NCBI RefSeq assembly: GCF_001050195.2 | Contig: NZ_DF967965.1 | Location: forward strand, 338,844-402,843 | Origin: Anaerolinea thermolimosa | GTDB lineage: Bacteria > Chloroflexota > Anaerolineae > Anaerolineales > Anaerolineaceae | DNA length: 64,000 nt | Direction: 5' to 3' | Shown: piece after piece, positions 39,784 to 44,717 of the stretch | Numbering within the stretch: position 1 is the first letter of the stretch | Layout of the letters: each line of letters starts with the position of its first letter | Position numbers and translations under genes: made by a program | Notes under the pieces: model-generated | The model's input: only the letters and a program-made list of their open reading frames with translations | Told to the model about the DNA's origin: nothing | Databases searched by the model: none

Positions 39784-39823
39784 AAAAGACCCCGAGGGTT
39801 TTTAATGCCCTTCGGGGTCTTTT
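39784..39823. terminator. Bidirectional terminator between enolase and alpha/beta hydrolase
   Basis: Arms at 39784-39798 and 39808-39823 form about 15 pairs with A and T tracts at opposite ends, so it works on both strands. The stop codon of the convergent hydrolase gene (39802-39804) lies within the loop. Confidence 0.9.
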
Positions 39824-41076
39824 GATTCTGGTATGTCGTCCAGAAAATGGAGAATTTCCTGGACGACCTGCCCAAAGGCAGGACTTGTGGGAAGCACCAC
39901 GTGGTGCTCTCCATTAACCTGGGAATAGCGGGCATTGGGCCCGATCATACTGGCGAGCTTTCGAGAAAGCTCCGGGCGGGTGATCGGGTCGCGTTCTCCC
40001 TGAAGAATGAGGGTGGGCATCTGGAGACTGCGTGCCTGCTGACGAACATTCTTCCCCATCTGGCGGAATTGTTCCAGAAAGAGAAGTGGAACCTGAAGCG
40101 GGCGTATGGCCTGTTGCACCTCAGGGTGTGCCAGGTTAACCTCTGGTGCTACCTGACCAGCAGCGGATTGAAGGTGAAGGGTAGGGAAGGATACCAGGCG
40201 AAATGGCCGAAGGGAAACCGGAAGGACAAGGCGAACCAGCCAAACGGCGGCACGGAGAGGGAGAGTTTCGTTGAACCAGAAGGGAGCAATGAGCACCAGG
40301 CGGTCGGGCTGGCTGGCAAGTGCCGCAGAGATGGCAAGTGCCCCGCCCATGGAGAACCCGCAGAGCACCACGGGCTTCCCTGTGGCGCGCGCTGAGGAGA
40401 CTTCTCGGGAGAGAAACCGAACCCACCCGGCGGTGCGTTGCCTGAAGAGAGACGAAATTTGAACACCAAATCCCGGTAAAAGCGGCACCCTCACAGCCCA
40501 TCCTGCGCGGTTGAGCTCTTGAGCCAGAGAACGCATTTCGTTGGGGGTGCCCGGAAAGCCATGCACCAGAATGACCAGGCCACGATCTCCGGGCAACTCG
40601 AAGGCTTCGTGTTCGGGGGTGGAGAGCAGGTTGAGGTCGGGCAAGAGTGGGTCGCAGCCGGGGGTAGTCAGGGCGTGGAACAGGCTGAAGAGAAGCAAGA
40701 AGCCTCCCTGAAGGGTGATTCCCCAGCCCATGCCCCGCCAGAAGGGTTCGGTTCCTCCTTCTTCTGTCAGGACCAGAAAGCCCCCTGCGGCGAGGATCAG
40801 CAAGGCCAATCCGGCGCTGATCCACAGGGTGCGCCTGAAGGTGCGCGCAGCATGGGCCTGTCGGTTGCTGTCAAAGGGCAGGCCAAGCCTGGCAGTGGCA
40901 AAGCGCAAGCTGAGGAAGGCCAGGATGACCTCGATAGCCCCCCAGACCATTCCCTGTAAGCCCAGCCCTTTCCAGATAGCATCCTGCTGGAAGATCAGGT
41001 ATAACCCGGCGCCCAGGCTAATCGCGCCCCAGGTAAACAGTCTTCGGCTGAGAATGCGCTGGAAGTCGTAAATCAT
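39802..41076 (-). CDS. Alpha/beta hydrolase with N-terminal membrane domain
   Basis: 424 residues. About 150 residues at the N-terminus hold four hydrophobic helices. The hydrolase domain follows, with oxyanion region VILVHGFPGTPNEM (near 175), nucleophile GFSMGG (Ser near 245), acid Asp in LQGERDPIT and His in NGEHHVV. This matches carboxylesterase/monoacylglycerol-lipase-type enzymes tethered to the membrane. It is the last gene of a minus-strand run that includes the selenoprotein and two other alpha/beta hydrolases. Substrate unknown. Confidence 0.82.
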   Translation of the reverse strand: MIYDFQRILSRRLFTWGAISLGAGLYLIFQQDAIWKGLGLQGMVWGAIEVILAFLSLRFATARLGLPFDSNRQAHAARTFRRTLWISAGLALLILAAGGFLVLTEEGGTEPFWRGMGWGITLQGGFLLLFSLFHALTTPGCDPLLPDLNLLSTPEHEAFELPGDRGLVILVHGFPGTPNEMRSLAQELNRAGWAVRVPLLPGFGVQISSLFRQRTAGWVRFLSREVSSARATGKPVVLCGFSMGGALAISAALASQPDRLVLIAPFWFNETLPLRAAVWLVRLVLPVSLRPFRLVSFPTLHLQSAAGQVAPEVNLAHPEVQQAIRPLQVPLLFLEQFRQMGKNVRQQARSLQMPTLILQGERDPITRPELSRKLASMIGPNARYSQVNGEHHVVLPTSPAFGQVVQEILHFLDDIPESKDPEGH

Positions 41077-41094: not shown

Positions 41095-41568
41095 TTACCC
41101 GGCTTGGAGCTTATCCAGAATCGCAAGAACACTGGCATTGGTGGGAATATCCTTCATGGAATCGCCATAATGCTGAAAGCGAATTTTACCTTCCAGATCG
41201 ATGACAAACAAAGCAGGCATGCGTCCCATTTTTAAAAGATTAAATTCTTGATCATACTGGCTGGCAACCCGCGAGCGAAGGTCGGGGCAACCGATGAAAG
41301 GCAGATTATTCTCCTGCCAGTAACGCTTGAAGGCGTTGGGGCCATCGGGGCCGATGGCGATGATTTCAGCGTTGCGGGCGGTAAATTGAGTGTAATCCTG
41401 GCGCAACTGCGCCAGATGTTGACGGCAATAGGGTCATATAAAGCCGCGCAGCAGAACCAGAACGATGAATTTTTTCCCACGAAAGTCTGATAATCGGATC
41501 GTGCGGCCAAGTGTATCGGTGAGTTCAAAATCAGGGGCTGTAGGATCGGCGGGTAAATGGGTAACCAT
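41095..41568 (-). CDS. Selenocysteine-containing peroxiredoxin-like (AhpC/TSA) protein
   Basis: Read through an in-frame TGA at 41434-41436, this is a 157-residue thioredoxin-fold redoxin. The start is the ATG ending at 41568 with AAAGGAG upstream. Before the TGA the family start APDFELTDTLGRTIRLSDFRGKK is clear. Around it the sequence is RGFI-U-PYCRQHLAQLR, where relatives have CPYC. After it the fold continues with IGPDGPNAFKRYW, NLPFIGCPDL and MPALFVIDLEGKI. Sec is residue 45 and the resolving Cys residue 48 (UxxC). A SECIS-like hairpin lies just downstream. Without recoding, only a 103-residue C-terminal piece would be annotated. It probably reduces peroxides or thiols. No sel genes are in the window. 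Confidence 0.85.
41396..41436 (-). promoter_or_regulatory. Bacterial SECIS-like element after the UGA codon
   Basis: Reading the minus strand, a perfect 8-bp stem CTGGCGCA/TGCGCCAG (41415-41408 and 41405-41398) with a GU in the tiny apical loop lies 26 bases after the UGA. This fits the bacterial SECIS layout, an apical loop with G at roughly 16-37 bases from UGA, which SelB needs for Sec insertion. Confidence 0.7.
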
Positions 41569-41607
41569 AGAGAAACTCCTTTCGTGTGTACGAAAGAGAA
41601 ACAAAGA

Positions 41608-42600
41608 TTATGGAAGAGCTTCAGAAAAATGATCCCTGATGAATTCAATCACCGGATTCAGGAAGAGGTCGGGACATTCTTCCTGGGGAAGGTGCCCACA
41701 GGCCGGGAGAACTGCCAGACGCGCCCCTGGAAGTTCAGAAGCCAGGCGGACGCTATCGGCGGCGGGAATGATCTGGTCGTTTTCTCCGCTGATCACCAGG
41801 GTGGGGAGGAAAATTCCCCTCAGCCGGGGAGCCAGGTCTTCATTGCCACTGCCTGCTTTGGTAAATTCCCACAGTGCCGCATCCCAGTTGGCCATGTGCA
41901 GGGGTTTACGGTAGCCAGCCTGGATTTCGGGAGTGATGCGGGAGGGATCGTGCCAGGCGGCCCGGAGGAAAGCTTCTCCCTGCTCACCGGCCAGGGAGCG
42001 GGCAAAGAAAGGCCCCAGCCGATCCATCTGAGGGGTGTGAACCAATGGTTGCAAGATGCCAAAAGGGCGCCGGTTGCCGGTGTAAATGGCCGCATCCACC
42101 AGCACCAGCCCGCTCACACGTTCTGGATGAGCCAGAGCGGCCTGAACTGCTAACCGCCCACCGGCAGAATTACCCACGAGAATGGCTTTTTCCATTCCCA
42201 GGGCATCCATCAGACCCAGGAGAAGGGTGAGGTTGCCTTCTACCCCGTAGGGGCTTTCTCCCTTCCAACTGCCCGGAAGGGGGCGTTCGGTGAGGCCAAA
42301 AGCGGGCCGGTCATACGCTACTACTCGTGCATACTGGCTGAGAGGCCCCATCACCTCACGCCAGGAAAAGACACTGGCGCCAAATCCATGAAGCAGGATC
42401 ATCACCGGTTCGTCCGTGCCGGCTTCTTTATAATGCACCTGTAACCCATTTGCGGTGAGAAACCGGCTATCGGGGTCAGCCAGTGCTTCGACGGGTTGAA
42501 TATCGGGCAGGGGAGGAACAGGGATCACCAGCGGCCCGATGATGAGTAGCACCAGAAAGAGGCCTGTCACAGCCGCAAGGACGCGAAGAGGGCGATTCAT
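41608..42600 (-). CDS. Alpha/beta hydrolase with N-terminal signal anchor
   Basis: 330 residues. One hydrophobic helix (VLAAVTGLFLVLLIIGPLVI) at the N-terminus probably anchors it outside the membrane. The catalytic pattern is LLHGFGASVFSW (oxyanion), VGNSAGG (Ser), SGENDQII (Asp) and ACGHLPQEE (His). Related in style to haloperoxidase/esterase-like hydrolases. Its start overlaps the stop of the upstream hydrolase (ATGA), and the selenoprotein gene follows by 39 bases. A similar anchored hydrolase is encoded at 52-53 kb, hinting at paralogy. Confidence 0.85.
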   Translation of the reverse strand: MNRPLRVLAAVTGLFLVLLIIGPLVIPVPPLPDIQPVEALADPDSRFLTANGLQVHYKEAGTDEPVMILLHGFGASVFSWREVMGPLSQYARVVAYDRPAFGLTERPLPGSWKGESPYGVEGNLTLLLGLMDALGMEKAILVGNSAGGRLAVQAALAHPERVSGLVLVDAAIYTGNRRPFGILQPLVHTPQMDRLGPFFARSLAGEQGEAFLRAAWHDPSRITPEIQAGYRKPLHMANWDAALWEFTKAGSGNEDLAPRLRGIFLPTLVISGENDQIIPAADSVRLASELPGARLAVLPACGHLPQEECPDLFLNPVIEFIRDHFSEALP

Positions 42601-43346
42601 GGAGACTCCTTCAGGCTGGTCAGGAAGTCCGTCAGGGCTGAAACCACCTGCCGTTGTTGCTCTTCACGCGAAATGGAGGCTGGCTTATCACCTGGCTGGT
42701 TACCATACCATCCAAACTCGGCATGGTTGCCGCCGATGATTTCAACCCAGCGGGTGTCTGAGGGGAGCAAAGCACGCGAGGCGGCGATTTTCTCAGCGGT
42801 GGCCAGTCCATCCTGCGTGGCATAGATGGAGATGCTCTTTACGTTCACAGATGAAAGGTCGTCGCTTGCGGCCGGGTACGAAGCAAGTAAGGCCAGCCCG
42901 GTGATTTTCCCGGGATGATTCCGGACAAAGTTAGCCGCCATGGCTCCACCGAGGGAATGGCCGCCAAGCACCCAGCGGCGAACTTCAGGATGGGCAGCAA
43001 TCACCTTCCCTGCAGTATTGGGAGCCAGAACAGCCAGATTGAGCGGCATGGGGGGCAGAATCACCAGATATCCGTTTCTGGCGAGTTCCCTGGCCAGGGG
43101 GGCGTAGGCCCGGGCATCCACATGTCCACCCGGGTAAAAAATGAACCCGGTATCCGGTGAACTACCGGCTGGTTTAAATTCGTACCAGGAGGAGGGACGG
43201 CTAACTGAGAGTGCAGAATCGCGCTGCATGGCCGCCAACGCCTCAGGCATGGGAGGAGAAGGGGTGAGGCCCCAGAAGACAAAACCACCTGTGACCAACA
43301 GAAGGATGATCAGCAGGCCAATCAAAACCTTGCGTAAAACATTCAT
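42597..43346 (-). CDS. Membrane-anchored alpha/beta hydrolase (dienelactone-hydrolase/abhydrolase_5-like)
   Basis: 249 residues from the ATG ending at 43346; an earlier Met at 43397 adds a non-conserved stretch before the hydrophobic anchor VLIGLLIILLLVTGGFVFWG. Catalytic Ser lies in LGGHSLGGAM near residue 135, Asp in YATQDGLAT and His in GGNHAEFGWYG. The FIFYPGGHVDARAYAPLAREL start suggests the abhydrolase_5 family, whose members act on lipids or small esters. It opens the minus-strand hydrolase/selenoprotein group. Confidence 0.82.
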   Translation of the reverse strand: MNVLRKVLIGLLIILLLVTGGFVFWGLTPSPPMPEALAAMQRDSALSVSRPSSWYEFKPAGSSPDTGFIFYPGGHVDARAYAPLARELARNGYLVILPPMPLNLAVLAPNTAGKVIAAHPEVRRWVLGGHSLGGAMAANFVRNHPGKITGLALLASYPAASDDLSSVNVKSISIYATQDGLATAEKIAASRALLPSDTRWVEIIGGNHAEFGWYGNQPGDKPASISREEQQRQVVSALTDFLTSLKESP

Positions 43347-43417
43347 ACCATGATTGTAGAATGAAGCAATGGCCAGATCAAGGTCAGGATTGTACAAACC
43401 TCATACAGCGGTGCGGA

Positions 43418-44113
43418 TTATTCCTGGAGCATTGAGCGGGCCATTTCCCAGATGCGGTCGAACATGGCGGGGGTGAGGCGCCCCGTCTGGGTGTTCTGGC
43501 GGCTGGGATGGTAAGAAGCCAGAAGCCAGGGGAGGTTAACATCGGGTTGGTAAAATGCCGCGTGTTGAAAAACCAGGTGATTGGATGAAACCCCCTGCTG
43601 GCGATACCAGGCCAGCAACCAGTCAAAGGCGATGCGACCGAGGGCCACAAAACCCTGCAGGTGAGGGCGTAAGAGGCCGATTTCTTCTTCGAGGTAAGGG
43701 TGGCAGGCGGCGATTTCCTGCGGGGTGGGTTTATTGTCTGGAGGGGCACAACGTACAGCAGCGGCTATGTAGAGGTCGTTCAATTGCAGGCCATCTTCTC
43801 GATGATGAGACAACGGTTGGTTGGCGAACCCCGCACGGTACAGGGCGGCATAGAGAAAATCGCCCGATGCATCGCCGGTAAAGTTGCGCCCGGTACGGTT
43901 TGCGCCATGTGCACCGGGGGCCAGCCCGACTACGAAAATGCGAGCATGGGGATCGCCAAACCCGGGGACGGGTTTCCCCCAGTATTCCCAATCCTTATAG
44001 GCGCGCTTTTTCTTTTCAGCCACTGCTTCACGCCACGACACCAGGCGAGGGCAACGCCGGCAGGTGATGATGCGCTCCGATAACGATGCCAGAGAATCCT
44101 CAAGATCACTCAC
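43418..44113 (-). CDS. Uracil-DNA glycosylase, type 5 (UdgB-like), iron-sulfur
   Basis: 231 residues from the GTG ending at 44113, six bases after AGGAG and overlapping tetR by eight bases; a longer start at 44143 lacks a ribosome site. Motif A GLAPGAHGANRTGRNFTGD has Ala/Gly in place of the usual polar catalytic residue, as in type 5 enzymes, and motif B is SYHPSRQNTQTGRLT. Four Cys (TCRRC at the N-terminus, RCAPP and AACHPYL mid-protein) should bind a 4Fe-4S cluster. It excises uracil and other deaminated bases. Third gene of the MFS-tetR transcript. Confidence 0.88.
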   Translation of the reverse strand: MSDLEDSLASLSERIITCRRCPRLVSWREAVAEKKKRAYKDWEYWGKPVPGFGDPHARIFVVGLAPGAHGANRTGRNFTGDASGDFLYAALYRAGFANQPLSHHREDGLQLNDLYIAAAVRCAPPDNKPTPQEIAACHPYLEEEIGLLRPHLQGFVALGRIAFDWLLAWYRQQGVSSNHLVFQHAAFYQPDVNLPWLLASYHPSRQNTQTGRLTPAMFDRIWEMARSMLQE

Positions 44114-44717
44114 GCTGTTCTCCTGTTTGGGGTGAAAGCCCATTTAAAAACGTATCAAGGAGAAAATGTACCACGGCAGTTTCGTCAAAGCGGGGAGAAC
44201 CGGTTGCGGAAAAGAAGGGATACATCATTCCCAGGAATGCCCAGGTGGCCATTTCGGGATCCACGGAGCGGAGTTCTTTTTTTTGAATGCCGCTCCGAAG
44301 GATATCGGCTATGCCGTCAATGAAGGTAGCATGGTACCGGCTGGAGAAGGACTCCCGCTTTTGCGGGCTGAGCTTGTTCATCTCCTGGGCCGCAAGCCGA
44401 ATGAGCGCCCGGCGTTCCATTGGAAGGCGGGTAAAAATCGCATGGATGAGAAAGCCCAGCTTCTGAGGAGTCCCTCCGGGTTGAGATGTTGCCTCAGAGA
44501 TTAAGGCGGTGAGTTCTTCCAGACTGCTCTCCAGGATTGCCAGGAAGAGATCCTCTTTATCAACAAAATAATAATACAGGCCAGGCTTGGAAATATGACA
44601 ACTGGCCGCAATCTCACGCATGGAGATACCATCGTAACCGCGGATGACGAACAGCCGCGCGGCTTCGTTTAGAATGTGAGAGCGCATATCAGATGGCGAG
44701 GAGGGCTCCATAAACAT
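44106..44717 (-). CDS. TetR-family transcriptional regulator
   Basis: 203 residues. The N-terminal TetR helix-turn-helix is typical: RSHILNEAARLFVIRGYDGISMREIAASCHISKPGLYYYFVDKEDLF. The C-terminal ligand-binding half is helical and variable. The gene lies 25 bases downstream of the MFS transporter gene in the same direction. A perfect palindromic operator overlaps the start region of that transcript, so it most likely represses the operon and itself until a transported compound binds. Confidence 0.92.
   Translation of the reverse strand: MFMEPSSPSDMRSHILNEAARLFVIRGYDGISMREIAASCHISKPGLYYYFVDKEDLFLAILESSLEELTALISEATSQPGGTPQKLGFLIHAIFTRLPMERRALIRLAAQEMNKLSPQKRESFSSRYHATFIDGIADILRSGIQKKELRSVDPEMATWAFLGMMYPFFSATGSPRFDETAVVHFLLDTFLNGLSPQTGEQRE

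Follow-up and report, generated by a model that had tools for sequence, protein, structure and literature searches.

An open reading frame of Anaerolinea thermolimosa that appears to be broken by a TGA codon is almost certainly the gene of a selenium-containing redox enzyme. The product is very probably a peroxiredoxin-like (Prx-like) selenoprotein of the UxxC type, in which selenocysteine (Sec) at position 45 would be specified by way of a hairpin with an AGUU loop, and which most likely acts as a selenol-thiol oxidoreductase. The gene lies in a stretch of 64,000 nt, hereafter the window (G000:C1:338844-402843), which was taken from a genome assembly of 4.17 Mb in 6 contigs (99.99% complete, 4.69% contamination).

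Reading frame of the redoxin gene

The gene and its signals were located as follows:

41095 to 41568, minus strand: Sec-containing Prx-like (UxxC) redoxin gene, 157 aa (translation, Pfam AhpC-TSA, TGA homologues)
41434 to 41436, minus strand: in-frame UGA, read as selenocysteine 45 of U-P-Y-C (66 counted homologues: TGA in 59, a Cys codon in 7)
41576 to 41580, minus strand: likely ribosome-binding site AGGAG, 7 nt before the ATG (direct sequence reading)

The frame runs from an ATG (41568-41566) to a TAA (41097-41095) and comprises 157 codons when TGA is read as a residue. Its single internal TGA (41436-41434) corresponds to residue 45, in the context R-G-F-I-U-P-Y-C. Residues 10-131, on both sides of the TGA, were matched by the Pfam model AhpC-TSA (E 9e-26, 90.7 bits against a cut-off of 26), and residues 9-143 by the Pfam model Redoxin (E 4e-20). 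The initial annotation, made from the sequence alone, had read the two flanks as one AhpC/TSA-like protein, and the AhpC-TSA match covers both. An inverted repeat, CTTTCGT-ACAC-ACGAAAG (window 41579-41596), abuts the ribosome-binding site of the gene; it was absent from the corresponding stretch of a relative of the same genus (L094).

A 103-aa ORF with a TTG start lies downstream of the TGA, and the locus might accordingly make two products, a 44-aa peptide and, from the internal start, a second protein downstream. Both sides are conserved as one domain in the homologues, however, the redox motif extends across the TGA, and the frame is continuous in the Cys forms of the gene, so that two separate products are highly improbable.

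Reassignment or general suppression of TGA in the host, either as another amino acid or by non-specific read-through, was also considered. Apart from the open frame itself nothing was found in its favour, whereas TGA serves as an ordinary stop in the window, where it ends 24 of the 54 mechanically called ORFs of at least 150 aa, among them one that we take to be the gene of CTP synthase. In addition, the codon at the site is only TGA or a Cys codon in the counted homologues, and a tRNA-Sec with the anticodon tca is present in the genome. We give this explanation very little credence.

Homologues and the codon at the Sec site

The host and 100 relatives (101 genomes) were searched, and a match at E <= 1e-12 was obtained in 59 of them. 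From 80 listed matches 68 were taken, 12 weak ones without a stop being left out. The 73 homologous loci were reduced to 66 counted ones, own gene included, by leaving out five paralogues of the host genome (L002-L006) and two PrxQ-type loci with TxxC (L087 and L088). The Sec site was located by a pattern requiring U or C, which every candidate matched. The codon at this site was TGA in 59 of the 66 and a Cys codon in the remaining 7, counts that are not independent because the homologues are related. The TGA thus stands in place of the first Cys of a CPYC motif, as had been proposed, and its recurrence shows that it is not a sequencing error.

The alternative that the TGA stands for a Cys codon through a sequencing error, or that the gene is a decaying relic, can point to the seven Cys homologues, and also to one genome (G017) with a TGA homologue and no detectable Sec machinery, where the gene could indeed be a relic. 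It is nevertheless extremely unlikely for the present gene: the TGA recurs in many assemblies, including those of the isolates Bellilinea caldifistulae, Ornatilinea apprima and Leptolinea tardivitalis, the frame is otherwise open, and the AGUU hairpin described below is absent from the seven Cys forms. All three of these alternatives were rejected: sequencing error because of the recurrent TGA, code reassignment because of the ordinary TGA stops, and internal initiation because of the one conserved domain across the TGA.

Among named loci (best 80 of 377 relatives, partly the same genes as the 66), 79 had TGA and 1 had TGC; by title these 80 are mostly from Chloroflexota, with some from Firmicutes (Facklamia miroungae, Soehngenia longivitae) and Deltaproteobacteria. 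Class-wide, 141 of 396 genomes gave a match at E <= 1e-20, which does not agree with the earlier view that Sec redoxins of this kind are rare. Among the matches listed in the class, all those better than 1.2e-47 have an in-frame TGA, one of them with an extra TAG. Class-level matches in G385, G370, G307 and G367 lie within open frames of 504 to 2216 aa, and fused or multidomain redoxins may therefore exist. A scan of the genome contigs with the single protein returned no relative, which is probably a limit of exact peptide patterns, and phage records contained distant matches only (4 records, 27.7-30.6% identity).

Three motif groups were distinguished, namely UP[YF]C, to which the window gene belongs, UPHC, and U[MLI]QC with its Cys relatives. 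On the best tree, in which the outgroup and the third subfamily were flagged as long branches, the distribution of Sec and Cys needs at least 3 changes, 2 of them forced by well-supported branches. One Cys homologue (L062:1501-1968, genome G022) reads CPFA and has lost the second Cys of the motif; the same genome also carries TGA copies.

Hairpin downstream of the UGA

41397 to 41416, minus strand: bacterial SECIS (bSECIS) hairpin, 7 Watson-Crick pairs and an outer G-U pair, apical loop AGUU at 41408-41405 (folding, homologues, published constraints)

The hairpin has the sequence CUGGCGC-AGUU-GCGCCAG, and the first base of its loop is 26 nt after the UGA. A perfect hairpin with a GU-containing loop had been placed 26 bases past the UGA; the hairpin itself was recovered, and the 26 nt turned out to be the distance to the loop, the stem starting some 18 nt past the UGA. 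Stretches of 41, 49 and 58 nt folded with -15.8 kcal/mol, including a small second helix, and with z of -2.5 to -2.7 against dinucleotide shuffles; on the same comparison z was -1.5 for a 76-nt stretch and +0.2 for a 46-nt stretch in which the hairpin is cut. The hairpin alone was calculated at -14.1 kcal/mol. The constraints given in the consulted part of a recent review are a loop of 3-9 nt, a stem of 4-16 bp, a G at the first or second loop position, a distance of 16-37 nt from the UGA and an MFE <= -7.5 (PMC13188914). With the loop AGUU, a stem of 7-8 bp, G in second position, 25 nt from UGA to loop and -14.1 kcal/mol, the hairpin agrees with every one of these constraints.

An AGUU(G) loop closed by at least 5 pairs was found in 57 of the 59 TGA homologues (all but L032 and L033) and in 0 of the 7 Cys homologues, in a loop-specific test that is partly post hoc because it was picked after the first folds had been seen. 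Synonymous recoding of the 59 genes (500 rounds) gave a mean of 1.44 and a maximum of 6, and for the window gene only 1 of 500 recodings had an AGUU hairpin of at least 5 pairs. The 5-pair criterion was passed by 72 of the 79 named TGA loci and missed by 7, in a set that adds loci not used to choose the loop test but overlaps with the 66 homologues. At the level of codons, 53 of the 59 TGA genes and none of the 7 Cys genes have CAG-TTG at the loop, TTG making up 20% of the Leu codons elsewhere in the TGA genes. Less specific measures separated the two forms poorly: any loop with G in its first two places and at least 5 pairs was found in 58 of 59 TGA but also in 3 of 7 Cys homologues, the mean folding z of a 48-nt stretch differed weakly (-1.35 for the 59 TGA vs -0.46 for the 7 Cys forms), and the mean MFE of the same stretch did not separate them (-14.3 vs -15.0).

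The position and the stem of the hairpin vary within the family. In L030, L052, L054 and L057, which occupy two separate places in the tree, the hairpin is 9 nt (three codons) nearer the UGA with the same loop, and the U[MLI]QC group has a rewritten stem, CGCCC-AGUUG-GGGCG. Over 79 distinct sequences pairing amounted to 88.8%, and sliding the 3' arm brought it down to 51.7% or less. Pair changes on both sides occurred in 15 cells vs 8.7 in shuffles that ignore the relatedness of the sequences, and sliding the 3' arm by -1 still yielded 12 such cells. Eight of the 15 fall on the column pair 22-39, the outer pair, which is unpaired in 60 of the 79 sequences; the other seven are in the 6-bp core (G-C to C-G, C-G to U-A and G-C to A-U). 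Two TGA forms, L101:6001-6462 (Ornatilinea apprima) and L103, have no AGUU hairpin and carry GGTT or GGCT at the aligned place, so that their SECIS loop may differ. The TGA forms of Bellilinea caldifistulae and Leptolinea tardivitalis do have the hairpin.

Selenocysteine machinery

The search for selA, selB, selD and tRNA-Sec had been set beforehand as a refutation test, and all four were present in the host genome above curated cut-offs (selB 319 bits, selA 551, selD 350, tRNA-Sec 75); ARAGORN likewise reported tRNA-SeC with the anticodon tca. The three protein genes are on the window's own contig (C1). The tRNA-Sec is on a separate contig (C3), and relatives were therefore checked for it; it was over the cut-off in 5 of 5 relatives tested.

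Among genomes with the TGA form, 46 of 48 had a selA match (E <= 1e-40), a count that includes one genome (G013) with fragments only, under the cut-off; selA was also present in 34 of 53 genomes without the TGA form, and the two are thus only loosely coupled. The exceptions are G031, which has selB and tRNA-Sec, and G017 (95% complete, its TGA form belonging to a distant subfamily), in which no selA, selB or tRNA-Sec was detected at the thresholds used. The distant TGA homologue of G017 (L090:1501-1875) has the hairpin, and may be an orphan Sec gene, the sign of an assembly gap, or a relic. In the three genomes with only main-group Cys forms (G075, G088 and G061) tRNA-Sec was not found, nor were selA and selB in the first two. 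G061 has selA in two pieces (G061:C6:30365-31518), a partial selB match and a Cys redoxin, which looks like loss of the Sec trait.

Two further genes of the host contain a TGA in frame. In selD (L015:1501-2433, G000:C1:2315532) it lies near the start (CAGUASK) and is followed by a hairpin with the loop CGUGU, the 51-nt fold of which is hardly better than shuffles (z -0.62). The other (L003:1501-1929, G000:C1:2925875) is a second candidate redox selenoprotein, a TxxU peroxiredoxin (TPIU), with a stable hairpin after its TGA (z -2.87).

Because the Sec machinery is present, the TGA is recurrent and the hairpin is conserved far above the recoding expectation, insertion of selenocysteine at position 45 of the redoxin is strongly supported at the sequence level and appears near-certain. 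In the mechanism that we propose, SelB with Sec-tRNA(Sec) would recognise the AGUU-loop hairpin, the loop of which begins 26 nt after the UGA, and selenocysteine would be inserted at position 45 instead of termination.

Predicted fold and active site

The structure predicted from a 28-sequence input (pLDDT 90.6, pTM 0.88) has a peroxiredoxin/ResA-like thioredoxin fold. The ten best rows in VIA-align, headed by Bcp, AhpE and human Prx4, had Z 22.1-23.0 and rmsd 1.7-2.2 over 145-151 aligned residues, and Foldseek returned peroxiredoxins with ResA chains close behind.

The active site of peroxiredoxins consists of Pro, Thr, Cys and Arg, which are catalytic, with the motif PxxxTxxC. In the alignment with the peroxiredoxin 2ywn, U45 falls on the Thr of TxxC, C48 on the peroxidatic Cys and P118 on the Arg of KRAVFVID; only the Cys is in place, and Arg41, Sec45 and Pro118 occupy the other three positions. 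In ResA (3c71) the same residues align with the first Cys of its CPHC variant, the second Cys, and the Pro of LPTTFLI, which is presumably the cis-Pro. Among the 66 homologues column 48 is Cys in 65, column 118 is Pro in 58 and a gap in the remaining 8, which make up the third group, and column 41 is Arg in 57 and Ile in 9. Sec at the place of the peroxiredoxin Thr and Pro at that of its Arg point to thioredoxin-like chemistry, and this pattern favours a Sec-Cys disulfide reductase of the thioredoxin type over a true peroxiredoxin. The initial annotation of a peroxiredoxin-like selenoprotein accordingly holds for the Sec reading and the fold, and is modified for the chemistry. From the alignments, Sec45 would attack a disulfide, or possibly a peroxide, Cys48 would resolve the selenenyl-sulfide, and Pro118 would take the cis-Pro place of thioredoxin-like proteins.

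An enzyme that mainly reduces peroxide shares the Sec reading and differs on the substrate, and its odds overlap with those of the preferred explanation. The best fold matches are peroxiredoxins, the Pfam match is AhpC-TSA, and Cys48 is at the place of the peroxidatic Cys, all of which are consistent with such a role; it is less well compatible with the replacement of Thr by Sec and of Arg by Pro, with Arg or Ile at position 41 in place of Pro, and with the separate TxxU peroxiredoxin candidate of the same genome. On balance we regard a mainly peroxide-reducing function as rather unlikely and prefer the selenol-thiol oxidoreductase.

Comparison with known families

A Prx-like family, distantly homologous to Prx and with UXXC in place of TXXU, was described in the Sargasso Sea study of 2005 (PMC1088965), appeared as Prx-like 1 (pfam00578, UxxC) in an ocean survey of 2008 (PMC2398784), and is given as a Prx-like thiol:disulfide oxidoreductase in reviews of 2022 and 2026 (PMC9312934, PMC13188914), according to the portions of these papers that were consulted. 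With this family the redoxin shares pfam00578, a thioredoxin-like UxxC (U45-P-Y-C48) in place of TxxU, and distant peroxiredoxin homology. The comparison was made with the description of the family in those portions, and no difference was found; the published reference sequence of the family is WP_010940744.1. As far as the consulted text goes, the redoxin is thus a well-supported further member of a selenoprotein family known since 2005. The term chloroflex was not found in the main text of either review.

The NCBIfam models matched the window protein in 13 families, each under its cut-off (28 homologues were scanned, cut-offs being shown for the first member only). The best was the SelL-related redox protein NF040769, with 70.6 bits over residues 10-92, which covers only the N-terminal half of the redoxin and falls short of the cut-off of 120 bits. 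ResA-type thiol-disulfide oxidoreductases share the active-site pair and the Pro at the place of P118 (3c71, E 7.4e-9), whereas the redoxin has Sec for Cys and reaches 52 bits with the NCBIfam ResA model against a cut-off of 170. Peroxiredoxins (AhpE/Bcp, Sec-Prx with TxxU) share the overall fold (Z 22-23), whereas in the redoxin Sec replaces the Thr and Pro the Arg, and the motif is UxxC instead of TxxC or TxxU.

Gene neighbourhood

The genes around the redoxin gene were compared in 81 loci, window included, many of which are cut by contig ends:

41608 to 42600, minus strand: alpha/beta hydrolase 1 (PF00561), next gene upstream, separated by 39 nt (same strand and no more than 150 nt upstream in 17/81 loci)
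42597 to 43397, minus strand: alpha/beta hydrolase 2 (PF12695), its end overlapping the start of hydrolase 1 by 4 nt (14/81 loci)
39802 to 41076, minus strand: alpha/beta hydrolase 3 with N-terminal DUF6992 domain, downstream, 18 nt gap (7/81 loci)
43418 to 44143, minus strand: uracil-DNA glycosylase (UDG) superfamily gene (PF03167), upstream, same gene row (15/81 loci)

The three alpha/beta hydrolases that had been named as neighbours were confirmed, two upstream and one downstream. On the same strand the order is MFS transporter, TetR regulator, UDG-family gene, hydrolase 2, hydrolase 1, Sec redoxin and hydrolase 3. Hydrolase 1, the N-terminus of which is hydrophobic by eye, was present at any place in 20 of the 81 loci. 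Two further downstream genes, which we take to be those of enolase and CTP synthase, recur in 15 and 12 loci, respectively; the MFS gene recurs in 2, and the TetR gene was found in the window only. One Cys form (L135) retains the adjoining hydrolase 2 and the UDG gene. The redoxin and hydrolase 1, often with the second hydrolase and the uracil-DNA glycosylase, form a gene row that recurs within Anaerolineaceae and, judging by record titles, also in some other Chloroflexota.

This recurrent co-location suggests a link between the redoxin and alpha/beta hydrolases, and it is suggestive only, since related genomes share gene order by descent. None of the titles listed by one full-text literature search concerned such a pair. 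It is conceivable, if doubtful, that the Sec redoxin is a dedicated redox partner of the apparently membrane-anchored hydrolase, maintaining or switching, at the membrane, the redox state of that hydrolase or of its substrate.

Implications

When the TGA is read as a stop, the redoxin gene loses its active site. As no NCBIfam model is over its cut-off either, the copies in this group of bacteria may be mis-annotated. The redoxin family is, in addition, a natural experiment on the grammar of the bSECIS element, in which the AGUU loop persists through rewriting of the stem or a shift of the entire hairpin by three codons.
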